Assembly: GCA_945863115.1 (NCBI GenBank)
Contig: CAMAYZ010000003.1
Coordinates: 1 to 64,000, forward strand
Source of the DNA: Bifidobacterium breve
Lineage (GTDB): Bacteria; Actinomycetota; Actinomycetes; Nanopelagicales; Nanopelagicaceae
Reading direction: 5' to 3'
Length of the DNA: 64,000 nt
Shown: piece by piece, positions 3,195-22,046 of the stretch
Layout: every line of letters begins with the position of its first letter
Position numbering within the stretch: position 1 is the first letter of the stretch
Program-made: the position numbers and the translations under genes
The notes under the pieces: model-generated
Database searches by the model: none
Told to the model about the DNA's origin: nothing
The model's input: only the letters and a program-made list of their open reading frames with translations

Positions 3195-4937
3195 ATGAGA
3201 AAGAAAGCAGCTCCTAAGACTTCGCTACGCGAATTAACAATTCGAAATCTGGGCGTAATTGATACTGCTGAGATTGAATTCAAGTCTGGATTAACGGTAA
3301 TAACCGGAGAAACTGGAGCCGGTAAAACCATGGTCTTGACAGCACTTAACTTAATTTTAGGTGGCAAATCTGACTCGGACTTCGTTCGAAGCGGACAAGA
3401 GCGGCTGGTAGTTAGTGGAAAATTCGAAATTGGCGATGCTATATCCGCTGTAGTGGAAGATGCCGGTGGCTTTGTCGAGGAGAACGAAGTGATTATCAAT
3501 CGTTCAGTGACAAATCAAGGTAAGTCGAAAATTTCTCTTGGTGGTGCGGTGAGTAGCGCAGCACAAGTAAGTGAAATCGCGGAGGACTTGATTGAGATCC
3601 ACGCGCAAGCCAGCTCAGCAAGGCTTAGCAAATCGGCTGTTCAATTGGATCTCTTGGACGCGTTCGCGGGCCATGAGCAACTAGTAACCGAGTATTCCGA
3701 AAATTATGAGAAGCACATCCTGTTAAGAAAACGGATCGTAGAATTAGAGAAACAACTTTCTATCCGCGAAGTGGAGATTGCTAAGTTAGAAGGAATTGTT
3801 AAAGATTTTGAGAGAATTAGACCTCTTCCCGGAGAAATTGCCACTTTGGATAATGAAATCAACAAATTGGGAGCGGTCGAAGAGTTGAACTCGGGGATCA
3901 TCGAGGGGCTGGGAACTCTGAATAGTGAAGAAAATTCAGCGATGGTTGCTCTGGGCATCTCCAAAAAGATTCTAGATAACCTCAGAGGAAAAGACTCGGT
4001 TCTAGACGCGCTTATTGAAGATCATTCGGAAAGCATTTATGAATTGATTGAGGTCACCGGCAAGCTGGAGCGGTATTTATCCCAATTGGAAGCAGATCCG
4101 ACAGGGTTTGATTTCTTGCAAAATCGGAAGAGTGAATTACTTGGATTAGTGAAGAAGTATGGCAAAGGCACTGATCGGGAGATTGCGTATGAGAATTTAC
4201 TTTCGGAGGGAGCTGATGCGAGTTCGCGCTTAGCGGATTTGCAAGGCGGAGATTTAAGGCTGGAAGAACTGCAGGTTGAGAGCACGAAACTCTTTGCAGA
4301 ATTAAAGAGTACGGCAAAAAAACTTTCGAAATCGCGGATTGAATGGGCCAGCAAATTATCCGCGGACATCACCAAAGAATTAGCCCTTCTAGCCATGCCG
4401 AATGCGAAATTGCTAGTTGATGTATCCGAGAATGATATGGATAATGCAAAAGTTTATTCTGCAAGTGGCGTCAATGAAGTGAGCTTCCTCTTTACAAGCC
4501 ACAACGATGGGAAACTTCTGTCAATCGCGAAGGGCGCAAGTGGTGGTGAGCTATCTCGTGTGATGTTGGCCGTGGAAGTAGTCTTAGCAAAAAATTCTGC
4601 TGTTGGAACATATATTTTTGATGAAGTGGATGCAGGCGTTGGTGGCAAGGCTGCTGTTGAAGTTGGAAAACGACTTGCATTATTGGCCAAGAATTCTCAA
4701 GTTATTGTTGTTACTCACTTAGCCCAAGTGGCAAGTTGGGCCGACAATCATTTAGTTGTTACGAAGAGCGAAGCAGGTTCTGTAACTCAGAGCAACATCA
4801 TTGAGGTAACCGGTAGTGAACGTCGGCGAGAGATCGCTCGGTTGCTCTCTGGGCAGGATGAGTCAATTTCTGCACAGGAACACGCTGGAGAATTGCTCGA
4901 TATGGTCGCGAAAGCAACGGCGGAAATGATAGGTTAG
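3195..4937 (+). CDS. recN: DNA repair protein RecN
   Basis: 580 aa SMC-like ATPase acting in double-strand-break repair. The Walker A motif GETGAGKT is at 38-45. The middle (~150-370) is charged and coiled-coil-like. The ABC signature (GASGGELSRVMLA) and Walker B/D-loop (YIFDEVDAGVGG) come near residues 450-490, followed by a switch histidine (VVTHLAQVA). Length is close to standard (~555-590). It starts 31 bases after nadK and ends 6 before pyrG. The ATG at 3195 has only a weak upstream Shine-Dalgarno (GCAGG). Neither a LexA box nor a clear promoter was seen in the short gap. Confidence 0.95.
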   Translation: MRKKAAPKTSLRELTIRNLGVIDTAEIEFKSGLTVITGETGAGKTMVLTALNLILGGKSDSDFVRSGQERLVVSGKFEIGDAISAVVEDAGGFVEENEVIINRSVTNQGKSKISLGGAVSSAAQVSEIAEDLIEIHAQASSARLSKSAVQLDLLDAFAGHEQLVTEYSENYEKHILLRKRIVELEKQLSIREVEIAKLEGIVKDFERIRPLPGEIATLDNEINKLGAVEELNSGIIEGLGTLNSEENSAMVALGISKKILDNLRGKDSVLDALIEDHSESIYELIEVTGKLERYLSQLEADPTGFDFLQNRKSELLGLVKKYGKGTDREIAYENLLSEGADASSRLADLQGGDLRLEELQVESTKLFAELKSTAKKLSKSRIEWASKLSADITKELALLAMPNAKLLVDVSENDMDNAKVYSASGVNEVSFLFTSHNDGKLLSIAKGASGGELSRVMLAVEVVLAKNSAVGTYIFDEVDAGVGGKAAVEVGKRLALLAKNSQVIVVTHLAQVASWADNHLVVTKSEAGSVTQSNIIEVTGSERRREIARLLSGQDESISAQEHAGELLDMVAKATAEMIG

Positions 4938-4943
4938 TGTTCC

Positions 4944-6578
4944 ATGACCGCCCAGCATGTAACCAAACATCTTTTTGTCACCGGCGGAGTGGCTTCCAGT
5001 TTAGGTAAAGGTTTAACTGCTTCCAGTCTTGGTCGTCTGTTAACTTCTCGTGGCTTGCGCGTAACAATGCAGAAATTGGATCCTTATTTGAATGTCGACC
5101 CAGGAACCATGAACCCATTCCAGCATGGTGAAGTTTTTGTTACCGATGATGGAGCCGAGACAGATTTAGATATCGGACATTACGAGCGATTTTTGAATGT
5201 TAATTTGCATGGTTCGGCGAACGTGACAACGGGCCAGGTTTATTCGAACGTGATTGGGAAAGAACGTCGTGGCGAATACTTAGGGGATACGGTTCAAGTC
5301 ATTCCTCACATTACTAATGAAATTAAAGAGCGAATTAAAGCGATGGCAGGGCCAAATATTGACTTGGTCATCACTGAAGTTGGCGGAACTGTTGGTGATA
5401 TTGAATCTCAGCCTTTCCTAGAAGCTGCACGTCAGATTAGACAAGATGTAGGAAGAGATAACGTCTTCTATTTGCACGTGTCTTTGGTTCCTTACATTGG
5501 GCCTTCGGGAGAGTTGAAAACTAAACCAACTCAACACAGCGTTGCAGCACTTCGTTCAATAGGTATCGCGCCGGACGCGATAGTTATTAGGTCAGATCGT
5601 CCGATACCTGATTCTGTGAAGCGCAAAATTTCATCGATGTGCGATGTTGATCTCGAAGCAGTGGTTGCAGCAGTCGATGCGCCATCGATTTACGATATTC
5701 CTAAAGTTCTTTTCAGCGAAGGCCTGGATAGTTATGTAATAAGACGACTCGGACTTCCTTCGCAAGAATTAGTTTGGGGCGAATGGGATGAATTGTTAGA
5801 GCGGGTGCATAACCCGGCTCATCAAGTAACTGTTGCCCTGGTCGGAAAATATGTTGACCTGCCGGATGCATATCTCTCGGTTACCGAAGCACTCCGTGCT
5901 GGTGGTTTCGCGAACAATGCAAAGGTAAATATTAAATGGGTCGCAAGTGATTATTGCGAAAGCGAAGCAGGCGCACTAGCCGCGCTAAAAGATGTGGATG
6001 CAATTTGTGTTCCTGGAGGTTTTGGAGTTCGGGGAATTGAAGGCAAATTAGGAGCTTTGAAATTTGCACGTGAGAAAAAGATTCCCACACTAGGTTTGTG
6101 TCTAGGATTGCAATGCATGGTCATTGAAGCCGCTAGAAATTTGGGCAATATTCTTTTAGCAAATTCTGCTGAATTTGATCCGGAAACTAAAGATCCAGTT
6201 ATTTCCACAATGCAAAATCAAGAAGATATCGTTGCAGGCAAAGGGGATATGGGCGGAACCATGCGCCTTGGCTTGTATCCAGCAGTTTTGGCTGCGGGTT
6301 CAGTTGTCGCAGAGGTTTATGGTTCTACTGAAATTCAAGAACGTCATCGCCATAGATACGAAGTTAACAATAAATATCGCGATCAACTCGCTGCCACTGG
6401 TTTAGTGTTTTCGGGCCTATCGCCGGATGGGAATTTAGTTGAGTTTGTGGAGTTACCGCAAAAAGTTCACCCGTTTTATGTCGGGACCCAGGCTCATCCA
6501 GAGTTCTTATCCCGTCCGACTGCAGCGCACCCATTATTTAGTGGCTTGATTGCTGCTGCGATCAAAAATGGCAAATAG
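4944..6578 (+). CDS. pyrG: CTP synthase
   Basis: 544 aa, standard length. Converts UTP to CTP with glutamine and ATP. The N-terminal amidoligase domain opens with [20 protein letters not shown], including the P-loop. The C-terminal class I glutamine amidotransferase domain has the oxyanion segment PGGFGVRG, the nucleophile Cys at about 386 in LGLCLGLQ, and the His/Glu pair in [12 protein letters not shown]. Key residues are intact. It lies 6 bases after recN and its 3' end overlaps xerD by 11 bp. The recN-pyrG-xerD order resembles mycobacteria with the intervening genes lost. Confidence 0.97.
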
Positions 6579-7491
6579 AACCGAGATAACAAGAGCCGTA
6601 AACGATTACCTTAGTTTCGCCGCTATTGAAAAAGGTCTCTCAAAAAATACAATTTCATCTTATCGTCGTGATTTGAATAAATTTTTAATCTATTTAGATG
6701 CTAACGATGTTGATTTTGAACAGATTGATCATGCAGAAATCGATAAGTTTCTAGGGTGGCTGCGCGGATCAGGTGGCAACAACCCTAGTAGCGAGAGTTC
6801 GAATTCTAGGGTTATCGTGACAATTCGGAATTTGTTTAAATTTATTTCAACGGGTAGCAGAGTTCCAAATCCATTGCAGGATTACTCACCGCCTAGAATT
6901 CCTAAGAGGTTACCCAAAGCCTTAAAAATCGATGAAATTCTTCTGTTGCTCGAGGCTTCTAAGTTTGATGAGGAGACTTTTGCAACCCGTAACAACGCGC
7001 TGCTGGAGATTCTCTATGCAACCGGTGGTCGAATTAGCGAGATAGTAGATTTGGATATTTCGAATATTTCAGAAATTTCCGAAACCTTCACGGTAAAACT
7101 AACGGGTAAAGGCGGTCGGGAGCGAGTCGTTCCCATCGGAAACTACGCACGGAAAAGTCTTGAAAAATACTTAACGACGAGTAGACCGGCATTGCTAAAG
7201 AATAAGAAAAGTGGTCGAGTTTTTCTAAATACTAGAGGGAATCCATTAAGCCGACAGAGCGCGTGGGAAATAATTATTAATTGTGCAGAGCGGGCGAAGA
7301 TTGAAAGTCACGTTACTCCACATGCGATAAGGCATTCTTTTGCTACGCATTTATTAGATGGCGGGGCCGATATCAGGGTGGTTCAGGAACTTCTTGGCCA
7401 TTCGTCCGTTACAACAACGCAGATCTATACCTTGGTTACCATCGACAAGTTGCGTGAAAGCTATGCCGGCTCGCACCCTAGAGCTAAATAG
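6568..7491 (+). CDS. xerD: Tyrosine recombinase XerD
   Basis: 307 aa from ATG 6568. An in-frame TTG at 6550 would add six residues inside pyrG and is less likely. The N-terminal SAM-like core-binding domain (~1-95) contains [13 protein letters not shown]. The catalytic domain carries the full set R155 (GGRISE), K181 (GKGGRER), H252 and R255 ([15 protein letters not shown]), H278 ([11 protein letters not shown]) and nucleophile Y287 (IYT). It resolves chromosome dimers at dif with a partner recombinase. The location after pyrG and near scpAB matches other actinobacteria, so this is the housekeeping enzyme, not an integrase. It converges on the RHH gene with only 18 bases between. Confidence 0.93.
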
Positions 7492-7509: not shown

Positions 7510-7902
7510 TTATTTTCCGCGCAGCCTTCTAGCGATAATACTTTGATCGCCTTTGGTTTCCAGATCAGCAATAATAATTGCGAGAGATTCACGAACAATA
7601 CGACCGCGATCTACTGCTAAACCTAAATCTCCACGGAGTGCTAAACGCGCTTGTTCAAGATCGTAAAGTTCTTCGGGGGATAGATAAACGGTGATTTTTT
7701 CATCATGGCGTTCGCGACCACTTGGTGACTTATCAAATGAATTAACTCGACGACGAGGAGTTGTGCGCACTGATTTTTTATTTGTTATCGGAGCTGTTGG
7801 GACATCCTCAATCGGTGTAGGTGTTTGCGATGGCACCGCACTTAGTGTGGTTGTTTGTCTAAAAAGTTCGTCGGCACCTGGCAGGCTCACTCTGCGACTC
7901 AT
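7510..7902 (-). CDS. Ribbon-helix-helix protein partnered with ParA
   Basis: 130 aa. Residues 1-65 are low-complexity and basic (TPTPIEDVPTAP, then RTTPRRR), probably disordered. Residues ~67-115 fit a ribbon-helix-helix DNA-binding fold: strand EKITVYLS, helix PEELYDLEQARLALRGD, then a turn and second helix GRIVRESLAIIIADLE. The start overlaps the parA stop by 4 bp, so the two are translationally coupled. Small RHH proteins coupled to ParA act as centromere-binding partners or autoregulators in plasmid systems (ParG/Omega type). That this one pairs functionally with ParA is inference from coupling and fold. Confidence 0.8.
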   Translation of the reverse strand: MSRRVSLPGADELFRQTTTLSAVPSQTPTPIEDVPTAPITNKKSVRTTPRRRVNSFDKSPSGRERHDEKITVYLSPEELYDLEQARLALRGDLGLAVDRGRIVRESLAIIIADLETKGDQSIIARRLRGK

Positions 7903-8819
7903 TTTGCTCCTCCTCGATGTATTAGTTCACGTGCAAGTCTGCGATATGACACAGCACCGGTAGAGCTGCTGGCATAAGTTGTTATTGGTTCACCCTTAAC
8001 GGTTGATTCAGAGAATCGAACAGTTCGCGAAATAATTGTATCTAGAAGGTCATCCGGAAATTCCTTGTAAATCAGTTCCAAGACTTCTCTAGAGTGAGCA
8101 GTTTTGCGCTCAAACATTGTGGCTAAAATTCCATCAATTTCCAAGTGCGGATTGGTATTTGACTTAACTTTATCGATTGTCTCGCGCACTAACCCAAGAC
8201 CTAGCACCGCAAAATATTCGCATTCCATCGGTATCAAAACACCATTCGAGGCTGTTAAGGCGTTAATGGTTAGCGTGCCGAGTGATGGGGAACAATCGAT
8301 AAGAATGTCGTCGTATTGATCAATGATTGGTTCTAGCATTTTCCGGAGTTTGTGTTCTTTGGCTAATTCTGAAACGAAAGCGGCATCCGCTGCAGCTAAA
8401 TCCTTGTGACCACGAATGAAATCAAGACCCGGAACATTAGACTTTAATATGAACTCTGCAATATTTGCTTGTGAATCATTTAGTAGATACCAGATTGATC
8501 CATACTGTTCTTTGATTTGCTGCGGTTTAATTCCTAGACCGGTTGTCATACTCGCTTGTGAATCAAAGTCTATTAATAAAACTCTACGACCAAGTTCAGC
8601 GAGAGCTGCTCCAAGATTTATAGTTGTAGTTGTTTTACCAACTCCACCTTTTTGATTAACTACAGAGATAACTCGTGCTGGCCCAGATGCTGGTGGTGTC
8701 TTTATTTGTGGGAAATCGCGCAATTTCTTTCCAAGAACGCTCGAGGTCGCGGAGAGTTCCTCTTCACGAATTGTCGATTTAGTTCCTAAGCGAGAAACCT
8801 TCGAATTGCTTTTTGCCAT
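7899..8819 (-). CDS. ParA-family ATPase
   Basis: 306 aa. Residues 1-45 form a variable basic leader. The ParA core starts VISVVNQKGGVGKTTT, with the deviant Walker A KGGVGKTT at 57-64. Walker A' lies in RVLLIDFDSQASMTTGLG and Walker B in DDILIDCSPSLG. It belongs to the chromosomal orphan ParA/Soj-like group found beside scpAB in actinobacteria, a second ParA separate from the oriC-linked parAB. Here it points away from scpA, whereas in mycobacteria the equivalent gene is co-directional with scpAB. It is coupled to a downstream RHH protein and has a leaderless-type promoter. Role (segregation or positioning) is inferred. Confidence 0.88.
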   Translation of the reverse strand: MAKSNSKVSRLGTKSTIREEELSATSSVLGKKLRDFPQIKTPPASGPARVISVVNQKGGVGKTTTTINLGAALAELGRRVLLIDFDSQASMTTGLGIKPQQIKEQYGSIWYLLNDSQANIAEFILKSNVPGLDFIRGHKDLAAADAAFVSELAKEHKLRKMLEPIIDQYDDILIDCSPSLGTLTINALTASNGVLIPMECEYFAVLGLGLVRETIDKVKSNTNPHLEIDGILATMFERKTAHSREVLELIYKEFPDDLLDTIISRTVRFSESTVKGEPITTYASSSTGAVSYRRLARELIHRGGAK

Positions 8820-8825
8820 GGCCGG

Positions 8826-8854
8826 ACTCTACGGCGGTGCGATTGGGTGTGCAA
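8826..8854 (-). promoter_or_regulatory. Leaderless promoter of parA
   Basis: Reading the minus strand, TTGCAC (8854-8849) and TAGAGT (8831-8826) are 17 bp apart. TAGAGT lies at -12 to -7 from the parA ATG, so transcription would start at the A of the start codon, with no Shine-Dalgarno. It interleaves with the scpA promoter on the other strand, so the two probably interfere. Confidence 0.6.
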
Positions 8855-8872
8855 GCGTAAGTGCATTACCTT
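8843..8872 (+). promoter_or_regulatory. Leaderless promoter of scpA
   Basis: TTGGGT (8843-8848) and TACCTT (8867-8872) are 18 bp apart. TACCTT lies at -12 to -7 from the ATG at 8879, which argues for that start over the GTG at 8861. No Shine-Dalgarno is present. Its -35 overlaps that of the divergent parA promoter. Confidence 0.55.
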
Positions 8873-8878
8873 TGCGCC

Positions 8879-9775
8879 ATGAATGCCAGCAATGAGGGTG
8901 TAATTGACGAAGCCGAAGCGCAAATTCCGGGTGTAACACCGGAAACGCCAGCGGGTTTTTCCGTTCACCTGTCCAATTTCGAGGGTCCATTCGATTTATT
9001 GCTCCAGTTGATTTCTCGCCACAAGATGGATGTCACTGAGATAGCGCTCGGAGTCGTCACGGATGATTTCATTGCTTACATCCGAGCTTTGGAAGGCTCT
9101 GAGGATGGCTGGGACCTTGAGAAGACAACAGAGTTTCTAGTGGTAGCGGCGACACTTCTGGATTTGAAGGCAGCCAGGCTGCTTCCTTCTGGAGAAATAG
9201 AGGATGAGGGGGATCTAGCGCTCCTTGAGGCTCGCGACCTACTTTTTGCCCGCTTATTGCAATATCGCGCCTTCAAGTCGATTGCAACGATCTTTAGCGA
9301 GCGGTTGGCCCGAGAAGAGCGGAGTTTTGCCCGCGTGGTCGCCCTCGAGGCTCATTTCTCAAGTTTGCTACCTGAGGTTCTAATTGGGGTTGGAGCTGAG
9401 CGCTTTGGCGCCATAGCTCAGCGCGTGCTTTCACCGAAAATTGCCCCCTCCGTAGGGATTTCCCATATTCATAGTCCGCTGGTGAGCGTTGCCGAAGAAG
9501 CTATTACCATCGTTAATGAGTTGCGCCGGACCGGTAGGAGCACCTTTCGCCACCTTGTTAGTGATGCCAGCTCAGTATTAGTGGTCGTGGCTCGGTTCCT
9601 GGCCCTCCTTGAGTTGTATCGCGAGGGCGTAGTGCGATTTGAGCAGGTAATTGCTCTAGGCGAATTGGCAATAACTTGGACCGGCAGCGCTGAGGGCGAA
9701 ATTGAAGTGAGTGACGAGTTCGATATTCCGTTAGTTCAATCCGAAGATAATACAAATGGAGAGTCAAATGTCTAA
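8879..9775 (+). CDS. scpA: Segregation and condensation protein A
   Basis: 298 aa from ATG 8879; a GTG at 8861 would add six residues. This is the kleisin subunit that bridges SMC heads with ScpB in the chromosome-condensation complex. The kleisin N-terminal signature FSVHLSNFEGPFDLLLQLISRHKMDVTEIALG is clear near residues 27-58, followed by DFIAYIRALEG and TEFLVVAATLLDLKAARLLP. The C-terminal winged-helix part includes ALLELYREGVVRFEQ. Upstream is a leaderless-type TACCTT box; the divergent parA shares the intergenic region. It overlaps scpB by 8 bp. Confidence 0.93.
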   Translation: MNASNEGVIDEAEAQIPGVTPETPAGFSVHLSNFEGPFDLLLQLISRHKMDVTEIALGVVTDDFIAYIRALEGSEDGWDLEKTTEFLVVAATLLDLKAARLLPSGEIEDEGDLALLEARDLLFARLLQYRAFKSIATIFSERLAREERSFARVVALEAHFSSLLPEVLIGVGAERFGAIAQRVLSPKIAPSVGISHIHSPLVSVAEEAITIVNELRRTGRSTFRHLVSDASSVLVVVARFLALLELYREGVVRFEQVIALGELAITWTGSAEGEIEVSDEFDIPLVQSEDNTNGESNV

Positions 9776-10325
9776 TCTTGAACTTAATAGATCACTTGAA
9801 GCCATCCTCATGGTCGTCGATGAGCCGGTTTCTGAGCTAATTCTAGCTCAGATCACCGAAACACCAACAGAAACTGTAATGAGCGCACTTCAGGACTTGG
9901 CTCGCGAGTATGAGGAATCAGGGCGTGGCTTCGAGTTACGCCAAATTTCCGGTGGCTGGCGGTTTTATAGCCACCCAGATCTCGCACCAATAGTCGAGAA
10001 ATTTGTTTTAGATGGCCAGCAATCACGCTTAACTCAGGCAGCTCTAGAGACTCTTGCCGTGATTGCTTACCGCCAACCAGTGTCCAGAGCTCGAGTTTCT
10101 GCAATTCGTGGAGTAAACGTTGAAGCCGTCATGAAGACTTTGGTCACCAGGGGATTGGTGGAGGAGAGCGGAATTGAGCATGAAACTGGGGCAATTCTCT
10201 ACAGCACAACTAGTTTCTTCTTAGAGAAGCTGGGGCTAAACAATGTGGCCGATCTTCCGGCGCTAGCTCCATTCCTGCCAGATGTAGATGCTCTTGATGA
10301 AGTGCTTTCTACGCTCACTGACTAG
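9768..10325 (+). CDS. scpB: Segregation and condensation protein B
   Basis: 185 aa from ATG 9768, preceded closely by GGAGAG; an in-frame ATG at 9756 would add four residues. ScpB is a tandem winged-helix protein that binds ScpA in the SMC-ScpAB condensin. Conserved segments are LEAILMVVDEPVS, GRGFELRQISGGWRFY, LTQAALETLAVIAYRQPVSRARVSAIRGVN and VMKTLVTRGLVEE. Length is normal. It overlaps scpA, so the two are made together, and is followed by an RluB-type synthase as in many Gram-positive bacteria. Confidence 0.93.
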   Translation: MSNLELNRSLEAILMVVDEPVSELILAQITETPTETVMSALQDLAREYEESGRGFELRQISGGWRFYSHPDLAPIVEKFVLDGQQSRLTQAALETLAVIAYRQPVSRARVSAIRGVNVEAVMKTLVTRGLVEESGIEHETGAILYSTTSFFLEKLGLNNVADLPALAPFLPDVDALDEVLSTLTD

Positions 10326-10448
10326 ATTTCAAGGGCACCCACGATTAGGGGAGCCGCTGATTTTGCCGTAACCTACGGTTGTAAGAACTCCTAAATGGTT
10401 CCAAAATCCAAATTCCACGCTGTTGAAGCCGTTGAAAAGAGAAATAAC

Positions 10449-11183
10449 ATGGGTCTAATACGTCTACAAAAAATCCTTGCTGATGCCGGTATTGCAAGCA
10501 GAAGAGCAAGCGAGCAGATGATTCTCGATGGCAGAGTCAGCGTTGATGGTTCACAGATTTTTGAGCTCGGGAGCAAGTATGACCCGGAAATCTCTAAAGT
10601 TGAAGTTGATGGTGAAGCAATTAAGCTCAATAAGACTAAGACTTACCTTGCATTTTATAAACCTCGGGGGGTAATTTCCACTATGTCAGACCCTGATGGA
10701 CGTGCCAATTTGGGAGATTTCTTTGAAAGCAGAAACGAACGCCTTTTCCATGTGGGGCGCCTAGACAAGGAGAGCGAGGGCTTGATCTTGTTGACTAATG
10801 ATGGTGCTTTTACCCATAGAGCTACTCATCCAAGTTACGGAATGAACAAGAAGTATCTTTTAGAGATAGAGGGGCAGTTCCTAAAAGAACATATTGACCA
10901 GTTATTGAAGGGTGTTGTTCTTGAGGATGGTATGGCCCGAGCTTTGGAAGTAAAGGTCGTTCGCGAAGTCAATCCCAAGCACCACTGGGTTGAAGTGTCG
11001 ATTCATGAAGGTAGATTTCACATCATTCGACGAATGTTCGAATTCTTGGAGCTAGAGGTTCTTCGCTTGATTCGAACCGACTTCGGCCCGATCTCGATTG
11101 GGGAGACCAAGGAAGGGCGTTGGCGCACCTTGAACTCGGTTGAACTCGAAAACCTATATAAGGTTTTAAAGCTAAATCTATAA
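10449..11183 (+). CDS. rluB: RluB-family 23S rRNA pseudouridine synthase
   Basis: 244 aa from ATG 10449; an in-frame ATG at 10395 would add 18 residues unlike the family's usual N-terminus. Residues 1-~60 form an S4 RNA-binding domain (IRLQKILADAGIASRRASEQMI). The synthase domain has YLAFYKPRGVISTMSDPDG and the catalytic loop GRLDKESEGLILLTNDG with Asp at about 106. RluB modifies helix 89-90 of 23S rRNA; substrate specificity here is by homology. It follows scpB, the usual context. A small palindrome (CCGTA-acc-TACGG, 10366-10378) and a TACGGT box lie upstream, so it may have its own promoter. Confidence 0.88.
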   Translation: MGLIRLQKILADAGIASRRASEQMILDGRVSVDGSQIFELGSKYDPEISKVEVDGEAIKLNKTKTYLAFYKPRGVISTMSDPDGRANLGDFFESRNERLFHVGRLDKESEGLILLTNDGAFTHRATHPSYGMNKKYLLEIEGQFLKEHIDQLLKGVVLEDGMARALEVKVVREVNPKHHWVEVSIHEGRFHIIRRMFEFLELEVLRLIRTDFGPISIGETKEGRWRTLNSVELENLYKVLKLNL

Positions 11184-11428
11184 ATAGAATTGCACAATAG
11201 ATATATAACTATTTATCGGTTTAAAGAGTGACCCCCAAAAAGTGATTTATCTATATTATCACGCTGATTATCTTCGATTGAATCTATTTATCGATATTTA
11301 GTATTTTTCATGCAGAACCAGAAATATAATGTCGATATTAAGAAGGAACTATTAATCGACATATTGTTTAACATCTTAATGGGTTTAAACCTTTCCCCTG
11401 GGAAGAGTGCGCAGGGTAGAATCTCCCA
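11184..11428. other. AT-rich intergenic region with repeated TCGAT-type elements
   Basis: This is one of the longest gene-free stretches in the window (245 bp), much richer in A+T than its flanks. Similar elements recur: ATCGATATTTA near 11291, TGTCGATATTAA at 11330 and the inverted TTAATCGACA at 11352, the last two forming an imperfect inverted repeat around a purine-rich centre. GTGAT...ATCAC (about 11238-11260) and the palindrome GGTTTAAACC (11382-11391) also occur, as does TTCCC-CT-GGGAA just beyond it. No convincing ORF or terminator. It probably holds control sites for aroH-tyrA. Confidence 0.5.
11417..11422 (+). promoter_or_regulatory. Leaderless -10 box of aroH
   Basis: TAGAAT lies exactly at -12 to -7 from the aroH ATG (11429), placing the transcription start at the ATG. 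No Shine-Dalgarno is present. A clear -35 is not obvious; TTCCCC lies near the expected position. Confidence 0.55.
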
Positions 11429-21258: not shown

Positions 21259-21290
21259 AGGTTGAGCCTTCTATTCTGACATAATGTGGA

Positions 21291-22046
21291 TTATCGGCGA
21301 TTATGAACCCTAGTCAGACGCTTAATCCCATTCCTTGAAGTGAATATTAACGCCTCAAGGGCTATCCAACCGTTCATTTTCGAGCTTCCCTTACTTCTTT
21401 CTATAAAGGTTATTGGAACTTCTGTTGCATTGGCTCCTGCAGTATTTGCAGCCATAGCCATTTCTATCTGAAAACAATATCCAGTTGCGTGCATTTGATT
21501 GAAATCAAAGCAGTTTAAGAGATCAACGCTATATATTCGAAAGCCACCAGTGAGGTCGTTTAGATTGATGCCCAGTGCAAACTTTGCATATCTGGTTCCG
21601 GATTTTGAAAGCAATTGCCGATATTTCGGCCAGTTAACAACACTGCCTCCTGGCATCCAACGAGTTCCTATGACTAAGGTCTTATTCGAATTGCTCGATT
21701 CCATGGGTCCTAAAAGTGCTGGGAGATCTTCTGCTCGGTGAGAGCCATCTGCGTCCATCGTGATGACATGAGAGTATTGCGGATCTCCCAATACTTTTAA
21801 AAAGCCAGCACGGTAAGCCGCACCGAGCCCATCTTTTTGCGGGCGTCGTAGGAGTTGCACCCAAGGCAGGCGCATAGCCTCCACAATATCTGCTGTTTTA
21901 TCCGGTGAGTTATCATCTATAACAACTAAGTCAAATTTGTATTGGCTCAATCTCCGGAATTCAACTAATTTATTTATTAGTTCGCATATGGTTTCAGCTT
22001 CATTGTAGGTCGGAATAAGTATTACGATTTTTGTTGACGTTGTCAT
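21291..22046 (-). CDS. ppm: Polyprenol monophosphomannose synthase
   Basis: 251 aa family-2 glycosyltransferase. VILIPTYNEAETI opens the domain; DLVVIDDNSPDKTADIV and VITMDADGSHRAEDLP give the nucleotide- and metal-binding Asp residues. There is no C-terminal membrane domain, as in the catalytic part of mycobacterial Ppm1. It makes polyprenyl-phosphate mannose, the donor for mannolipids and protein O-mannosylation. It overlaps lnt by 4 bp; in M. tuberculosis the two functions are one protein, here they are separate coupled genes. The mannosylation pathway itself is not in the window. Confidence 0.9.
   Translation of the reverse strand: MTTSTKIVILIPTYNEAETICELINKLVEFRRLSQYKFDLVVIDDNSPDKTADIVEAMRLPWVQLLRRPQKDGLGAAYRAGFLKVLGDPQYSHVITMDADGSHRAEDLPALLGPMESSNSNKTLVIGTRWMPGGSVVNWPKYRQLLSKSGTRYAKFALGINLNDLTGGFRIYSVDLLNCFDFNQMHATGYCFQIEMAMAANTAGANATEVPITFIERSKGSSKMNGWIALEALIFTSRNGIKRLTRVHNRR

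Follow-up and report, generated by a model that had tools for sequence, protein, structure and literature searches.

A ParA-family ATPase gene and a small ribbon-helix-helix (RHH) gene, which lie between xerD and scpA, probably form with an array of palindromes approximately 3 kb away a single type-I-like partition system, located on the chromosome, with an RHH adaptor and acting on the terminus region. Comparison of sequences across relatives reveals an old ParA-RHH pair, a near-invariant peptide on a variable linker, and palindromes enriched at loci that carry the RHH gene (RHH+, as opposed to RHH-). The adaptor is predicted to have the RHH fold. A preliminary description had proposed a second chromosomal partition or positioning module at this place, and the fold, the co-occurrence of the two genes and the discovery of an iterated site support that proposal. 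The window, which is the whole stretch of DNA that was analysed, is 64,000 nt in length (C3:1-64000) and belongs to the genome of a tiny freshwater actinobacterium, 1.32 Mb in 31 contigs.

The ParA-RHH gene pair and its neighbours

The layout reported from the ORFs was reproduced: the ParA and RHH genes, both on the minus strand, are inverted between xerD and scpA, both on the plus strand, and overlap by 4 bp (7899-7902). The ParA-family ATPase (7899-8819, minus strand; 306 aa) occupies the PldP/parA2 position, matches Pfam AAA_31 at 2.8e-55 and carries the deviant Walker A motif KGGVGKT at residue 57. Directly downstream, as in type-I RHH partition, is the gene for the adaptor with the predicted RHH fold (7510-7902, minus strand; 130 aa), a candidate centromere-binding protein. 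The pair is flanked on one side by a xerD-like tyrosine recombinase gene (6550-7491, plus strand; Phage_integrase, 3.9e-44), and on the other by scpA (8861-9775, plus strand; SMC_ScpA, 2e-50; likelier ATG start at 8879) and scpB (9756-10325, plus strand; SMC_ScpB, 9.2e-51). These are followed by a pseudouridine synthase gene (10395-11183, plus strand; PseudoU_synth_2, 4.5e-21; S4, 1.6e-8), presumed from its position to be rluB, which forms the upstream boundary of the array. The next gene after the array encodes a chorismate mutase (start 11429; CM_1, 5.6e-40).

The sequence places a divergent region of 59 bp between parA and scpA (8820-8878). Read on the minus strand, it contains TTGCAC (8849-8854), 17 bp, TAGAGT (8826-8831), 6 bp and ATG, and the two boxes before parA constitute a putative promoter. 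No copy of the array palindrome occurs in this gap, and inspection by eye of the parA/scpA intergenic regions of 53 divergent loci revealed promoter-like boxes only, with no common palindrome.

The pair is not the origin system, because the genome has its own parAB and parS-like sites on contig C5. A second ParA is encoded there next to a ParB with ParB_N, HTH_ParB and ParB_C domains. Scanning the genome with what we take to be the parS consensus, allowing up to one mismatch, located parS-like sites only at C5:77487 and C5:78116 and none at the ParA-RHH locus. The RHH adaptor had no Pfam match to ParB domains at E up to 1.

Fold and N-terminal peptide of the RHH protein

The RHH protein had no match in Pfam or NCBIfam at E up to 1, and a sequence profile search of the PDB found no relative; among 24 family members submitted to these profile searches, one touched RHH_3 at 0.019. 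The AlphaFold2 model reached pLDDT 92-97 over residues 71-130, with helices at 76-93, 99-120 and 122-129; because the ribbon pairs only in the dimer, it was not called as strand in this monomer model. Foldseek alone returned nothing significant (best E 1.5). The top four rows of a second-look structural alignment were 7ycv (PrpA RHH, Z 4.7), 7ycw (ParD RHH, 4.7), 2wvd (NikR, 4.5) and 3no7 (ParB of plasmid pCXC100, 4.4), Z values that are low in absolute terms; we take 2wvd and 3no7 to be RHH folds. The model and these matches support the previous assignment of the protein to the RHH fold. The N-terminus, previously described as disordered and basic, is indeed basic, but it is not merely disordered, as its first 17 residues are near-invariant (MSRRVSLPGADELFRQT; 7852-7902).

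Nearly every member of the family that was read has the same build: M-S/T-RR-x-x-LPGADELFR-x-T, a variable linker of 22-115 residues and the RHH domain (residues ~68-130, about 7510-7701 in the window), with the block EKITVY...DRGRIVREA...ADLEAKG...RRLR. The peptide is conserved as strongly as the DNA-binding domain, and in G005 it is kept where the RHH domain has diverged. Further exceptions were L201, without most of the peptide, and L036, whose frame as read shows no peptide at all; L190 and L202 have other N-termini. The last two (L190 in G228, L202 in G540) are divergent pairs of ParA and an RHH-like protein with different basic N-termini, and are possibly separate systems or contamination.

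In two other actinobacteria (G460 and G493) the peptide, as M.RRASLPGADELF, heads a protein of the O-methyltransferase family. The peptide-headed ORFs, L204 3219..3938 and L203 within 3284..4405, both on the minus strand, match Methyltransf_3 at 8.6e-9 and 5.8e-15, respectively; L201, the RHH protein without most of the peptide, comes from the ParA locus of G460. The sequences suggest that the peptide may be a portable docking tag. By eye, the RHH tail RRVSLPGADELF resembles the ParB tail RKGGLGRGLDSLI, as does, within one genome and with no statistic attached, the RHH tail RRVSLPGADELFRQT the canonical ParB tail RKGGLGRGLDSLIPT. PMC13245405 describes the ParB motif as making contact with ParA; like the other papers cited here by accession, it is represented by excerpts.

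Searches at E up to 1 through 72,556 plasmid records and through phages yielded no relative of the RHH protein. The closest among the best 80 of 446 confirmed relatives in named genomes was the MAG PowLak16_MAG7, whose RHH protein is 98% identical, and Nanopelagicaceae or Planktophila account for many of the next-best in that set.

An iterated palindrome array downstream of rluB

The preliminary description reported no iterated repeats beside the RHH gene. There are none directly beside the pair, but downstream of rluB, at approximately 3.3 kb from the RHH gene, palindromes do form an iterated array that is a candidate centromere (11214-11361). The five sites are TATCGGTT (11214-11221), TATCTATA (11248-11255), TATCGATA (11289-11296), TGTCGATA (11330-11337) and AATCGACA (11354-11361), spaced at 34, 41, 41 and 24 bp within the 245 bp gap between rluB and the chorismate mutase gene (11184-11428). 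Two of the five match TRTCGAYA exactly, and three are off by one or two letters.

The array is a regular feature of related loci. Among 67 pieces, 52 (including the window) had a readable rluB end and at least 120 bp beyond it, and the 400 bp after rluB in these loci contained 124 exact TRTCGAYA sites, none of them beyond the first 250 bp; although no two arrays are identical, these related loci do not count as independent. At least one site was present in 49 of the 52 loci and at least two in 42, with zero exact sites in L117, L133 and L136. Site density was 6.04/kb after rluB versus 0.10/kb in the rest of the same loci, and 11 control palindrome families reached at most 0.34/kb after rluB.

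Paired sites 20-50 bp apart occurred in the window's own genome at this array only. A genome-wide search of 16 Nanopelagicaceae found them at the array in 13 (G103, G114 and G193 being without); the remaining matches came from four genomes that share a similar sequence and from a single place in G025, and the reversed-pattern control in the 16 genomes gave none. The resultant for helical phasing was 0.42 at 10.5 bp versus about 0.30-0.33 at other periods, and because the genomes are related, we do not claim phasing. Iterated centromere-like sites are present at the locus, though not in every RHH+ locus.

Palindromes in GC-rich relatives and other classes

TRTCGAYA is the AT-rich form of the palindrome of GC-rich relatives, TGTCGACA. 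A k-mer comparison of xerD-parA intergenic regions found TCGACAA, which is half of the palindrome TTGTCGACAA, in 14 of 26 RHH+ and none of 14 RHH- loci (p 4.6e-4, not significant after the thousands of k-mers tested). In class pieces surrounding scpA, at most 13 kb long, TGTCGACA occurred 20 times in 20 RHH+ pieces and twice in 20 RHH- pieces; 13 RHH+ pieces carried it and 7 were without, versus 2 of 20 RHH- pieces with it. In the RHH+ pieces its count was the highest among 96 palindromes of that composition, although GACATGTC (5:0) exceeds it by ratio of RHH+ to RHH-. Twelve of the 20 copies were before or at the start of parA, 2 right after rluB and 6 elsewhere; in the window there is none before parA. 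The k-mer discovery set included 10 RHH+ and 11 RHH- genomes of this count, and among genomes outside that set TGTCGACA was found in 9 of 10 RHH+ versus 2 of 9 RHH-. Genomes of one family are not independent in these site counts, and a tree-based test had only two usable pairs.

At the scale of whole genomes, YTTGTCGACAAR was present in 22 of 38 RHH+ versus 2 of 20 RHH- genomes, with 27 sites in the former (reversed control 10) and 4 in the latter (reversed 3). Of the 31 sites, 13 are no more than 11 kb away from the pair, and the distant ones may be chance, since the reversed pattern gives 13 against 31. The strict form, AYWTGTCGACAWRT, had 39 sites in 396 genomes of the phylum (reversed pattern 13). 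Nineteen of these fall in 12 of the 35 RHH+ genomes from outside the class, where the reversed control was 0, and 17 of the 19 are within 20 kb of the RHH gene; the strict site is absent from the other 23 of the 35. Two genomes of family f41 (G380 and G418) have strict matches and were not counted as RHH+, since the profile search lists no RHH match for them. Inside the class the strict form is rare, with 22 sites in 197 genomes (reversed control 3), 4 of them at the locus (G027, G042, G061 and G171), and 17 of 91 RHH+ genomes versus 5 of 106 others have one anywhere. In family f41 sites are spread over up to 20 kb, and in G197 the 20 kb running from the parA promoter contain seven copies of TGTCGACA, versus a single copy in the remaining 100 kb read.

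Some single cases deserve mention. G137 (f39), in which no RHH gene was detected, has three YTTGTCGACAAR sites (C2:24168, C3:100984 and C5:91445), and its relative G147 has the RHH gene and no TGTCGACA on the piece read. In the RHH+ genome G063, TTGTCGACAA lies ~55 bp past the matched end of canonical parB, near dnaA (C1:4202149-4202160). In Streptomyces (12 loci, e.g. L041 and L137-L153) a long, strongly conserved stretch lies before and over the start of parA2, whose leader contains GACACA/TGTGTT elements, with GAGTCGACATTT at the start codon.

Position relative to dif and the terminus

The replication terminus is marked by a dif-like site, CGCCGATAATCCACATTATGTCA (21277-21299, minus strand); the distance is ~10 kb to the array and 13.8 kb to the pair. 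It differs by one letter over 23 from the predicted Frankia dif given in the excerpt of PMC3025954; a looser generic dif pattern has a chance expectation of 0.26 in the window, and the GC skew changes sign near the site. In all Nanopelagicaceae examined (13 genomes and the window, 14/14) the dif-like site was 13.0-14.6 kb from the pair and 9.4-10.3 kb from the array. The cumulative GC-skew maximum of the piece fell within 1.1 kb of it in 8 of the 14 and at 1.6-12.3 kb in 6, and in 14 of 14 complete genomes the pair was located 0.46-0.54 of the chromosome from dnaA. Seven of the 14 Nanopelagicaceae, including the window, also have extra TRTCGAYA sites close to dif, on one side and no more than 1 kb away (11 sites, 0.79/kb); examples are G044:C1:669787-670148 and G077:C1:727934-728262.

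Outside this family the terminus link is weaker and comes from one genome, G271 of f41, in which 25 kb separate the pair from a dif-like site (one mismatch) on the side of the palindromes. Scanning with up to two mismatches found nothing near the pair in the other 11 of 12 RHH+ regions from outside the Nanopelagicaceae, and none in RHH+ G063, G115 and G166 or RHH- G030, G129 and G188. The pair is roughly opposite dnaA in G063, G115 and G166, and less so in G104, G026 and G171; in the last two it does not lie opposite. Because RHH- loci are likewise terminus-proximal (0.53-0.57 from dnaA in G030, G188 and G129), this proximity may belong to the xerD-scpAB cluster.

Distribution and history of the pair

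Strong matches to the RHH gene (E <= 1e-18) were found in 91 of 197 genomes of the class, including 16 of 16 in the window's own family. A further 22 of the 113 matches in the class search were weak (E 5e-4 to 0.1) and were counted as noise, except that of G005, a diverged RHH copy sitting in place. Across the phylum, 48 of 396 genomes were positive with the RHH profile, 35 of them outside the class and some weakly, with at most 10 candidates scored per genome. Pairing with ParA, which the preliminary description had left to be compared across relatives, holds: ParA is immediately upstream of the RHH gene in all 20 sampled RHH+ loci of the class, both genes are on the piece in 78 of 81 loci, and both are present on 18 of 20 pieces picked from other classes by their RHH match (xerD on 12, scpA on 10). 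As far as these sequences go, the RHH protein is an old actinobacterial family that is paired with ParA.

The usual order is xerD-ParA-RHH-scpA-scpB on one strand, and the inverted order of the window was found in its own family and in one f39 genome. The start of the RHH gene overlaps the end of ParA by 4, 16 or 28 nt in 28, 12 and 2 loci, respectively, which make up the 42 readable ones of 50 loci, the other 8 having an unusable ParA end; for 6 of the 50, the genome had already contributed another piece. In the 20 RHH- pieces, one of which (L065, from G029) is without any ParA match, scpA follows ParA directly or within about 200 bp, with two exceptions among the 19, where a membrane-protein-like ORF lies between them.

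In a poorly resolved ParA tree, whose rows from outside the class were all fetched as RHH positives, RHH- rows were scattered; parsimony gave 14 changes, and supported branches force at least 5. Repeated loss of an old RHH partner would be the simplest reading. Given the RHH+ distribution, and ParA usually running straight into scpA where the RHH gene is absent, the 'orphan' ParA (PldP) looks like an old pair that has repeatedly become partner-less. Tested for relaxed constraint, ParA in RHH- lineages showed only mild shifts, which we do not count as evidence. The incomplete genome G438 has a decayed-looking RHH remnant, MTRRTRLPGADEPFRST..., ~1.5 kb before scpA (L206 1803..2117, plus strand).

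Comparison with known systems

We suggest that the system would work most like archaeal SegAB. In excerpts of PMC12284271, SegB of Sulfolobales is an RHH protein that binds palindromes located upstream of the operon and clustered in the surrounding ~50 kb, and its gene overlaps that of the ParA-like SegA. The pair described here shares with SegAB a chromosomal ParA gene overlapping an RHH gene and palindromic sites. The motifs differ, however (TCTAGA-S-TCTAGA versus TRTCGAYA), as do the positions, SegAB lying in the oriC1 region and the Nanopelagicaceae pair near dif; moreover, the pair has scpAB and xerD as neighbours, and its bacterial hosts possess ParAB-parS as well. RHH partition of type I on plasmids (ParFG of TP228, delta-omega of pSM19035, ParAB of pCXC100; described in part in PMC13245405 and PMC7022226) likewise combines ParA, a small RHH adaptor and an iterated centromere, and pCXC100 ParB is among the best fold matches of the RHH protein. 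Unlike those systems, the pair is chromosomal, old within the phylum and equipped with a fixed N-terminal peptide, and its array is split from it by scpAB-rluB.

To judge by their position between xerD and scpA, PldP, Rv1708 and SCO1772 (parA2) are ParA proteins of this kind (PMC3989709, PMC10482377 and PMC4255298, in excerpt); the window has the same xerD-ParA-scpA-scpB synteny and a ParA distinct from the oriC parA. PldP is described in the excerpt of PMC3989709 as entirely without a partner ParB, whereas the window ParA has an RHH partner and candidate sites. In the open-licence literature searched, we found no described partner or site for a PldP-type ParA. Chromosomal ParAB-parS likewise has a ParA, clustered sites and an adaptor whose N-terminal peptide is basic, but differs in adaptor (HTH-CTPase versus RHH), in site and in location (origin versus terminus). 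A 2026 paper names HTH-ParB as the only partition type on bacterial chromosomes (PMC13245405, in excerpt).

Proposed mechanism and alternatives

In the partition system that we propose, RHH dimers would bind the palindromes and form a partition complex, as we infer from co-occurrence and from the conserved strand K-T-Y, of which the near-invariant K69, T71 and Y73 would be the expected DNA contacts. The N-terminal peptide may dock on ParA and stimulate its ATPase as ParB tails do, and nucleoid-bound ParA-ATP would then pull or hold the complex. The array is about 10 kb from dif, so that the likely cargo would be the terminus region, placed at the division site near XerCD and condensin. PldP forms septal foci, gives minicells and interacts with ParB, and Rv1708 has been linked with ScpA and ParB (PMC3989709 and PMC10482377, in excerpt); these data, the foci at the nascent septum and the division defects among them, fit the proposal, though they come from other species. 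In GC-rich relatives, a palindrome before parA may add autoregulation.

An unlikely alternative is that the RHH protein only regulates the parA-scpAB-rluB region, as an autorepressor with the palindromes as operators and no partition, and that ParA alone acts in division-site selection. RHH proteins are commonly repressors, the majority of the TGTCGACA copies in RHH+ class pieces (12/20) are before or at the parA start, and the array of the window is upstream of the chorismate mutase gene (11429). However, arrays of 2-5 sites are more than one operator needs, the f41 sites extend over up to 20 kb, the Nanopelagicaceae array is away from the parA promoter, and a peptide conserved like the DNA-binding domain speaks against a mere repressor.

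It is also rather improbable that the protein is a terminus organizer of the MatP type that folds or tethers the terminus and marks the septum by binding sites near dif, with ParA as a tether or divisome regulator and not a mover. MatP-matS (PMC12756933) and CdbA (PMC7156744) are described, in excerpts, as RHH nucleoid organizers linked to chromosome order and division. The RHH protein resembles them in predicted fold and in its putative ties to chromosome order and division, and differs in motif. The matS motif is GTGACRNYGTCAC, with sites scattered in the terminus, whereas the site here is TRTCGAYA; to our knowledge, neither MatP nor CdbA is coupled to a ParA gene. An organizer of this type would suit the constant distance of the array from dif (9.4-10.3 kb, 14/14), the modest surplus of sites that flanks dif on one side out to 1 kb (11 sites, 7/14), and the minicells and division-site foci published for PldP (PMC3989709, in excerpt). 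Against it, sites in Nanopelagicaceae are concentrated in one array with no macrodomain-wide spread, and coupling of ParA to an RHH protein is a hallmark of partition cassettes. The organizer overlaps with the partition reading, and the two are hard to separate by sequence.

That another protein binds the array, such as a replication fork trap or an unrelated repressor, with an indirect link to the RHH gene, is very unlikely: fork traps occur at the terminus, which the array adjoins, and RHH- G137 carries sites, but fork traps are polar, whereas the array sites are palindromic, and sites track the RHH gene across classes and positions (before parA, after rluB, over a 20 kb spread).

Beyond the window, we consider it possible, while stopping short of calling it probable, that actinobacteria ancestrally carry a second, RHH-type chromosomal partition system opposite the origin. 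ParA (PldP), the RHH protein and a centromere beside dif would serve the terminus, and ParAB-parS the origin; the corynebacterial and mycobacterial 'orphan' PldP would be remnants without adaptor and sites. If true, an RHH partition cassette equipped with its own centromere would be present in much of the phylum, associated with condensin and Xer genes and, for one family or more, located near the terminus. PldP would gain a partner and a DNA site, and the placement of septum and terminus in Min-less actinobacteria, for example Streptomyces, would become directly testable.
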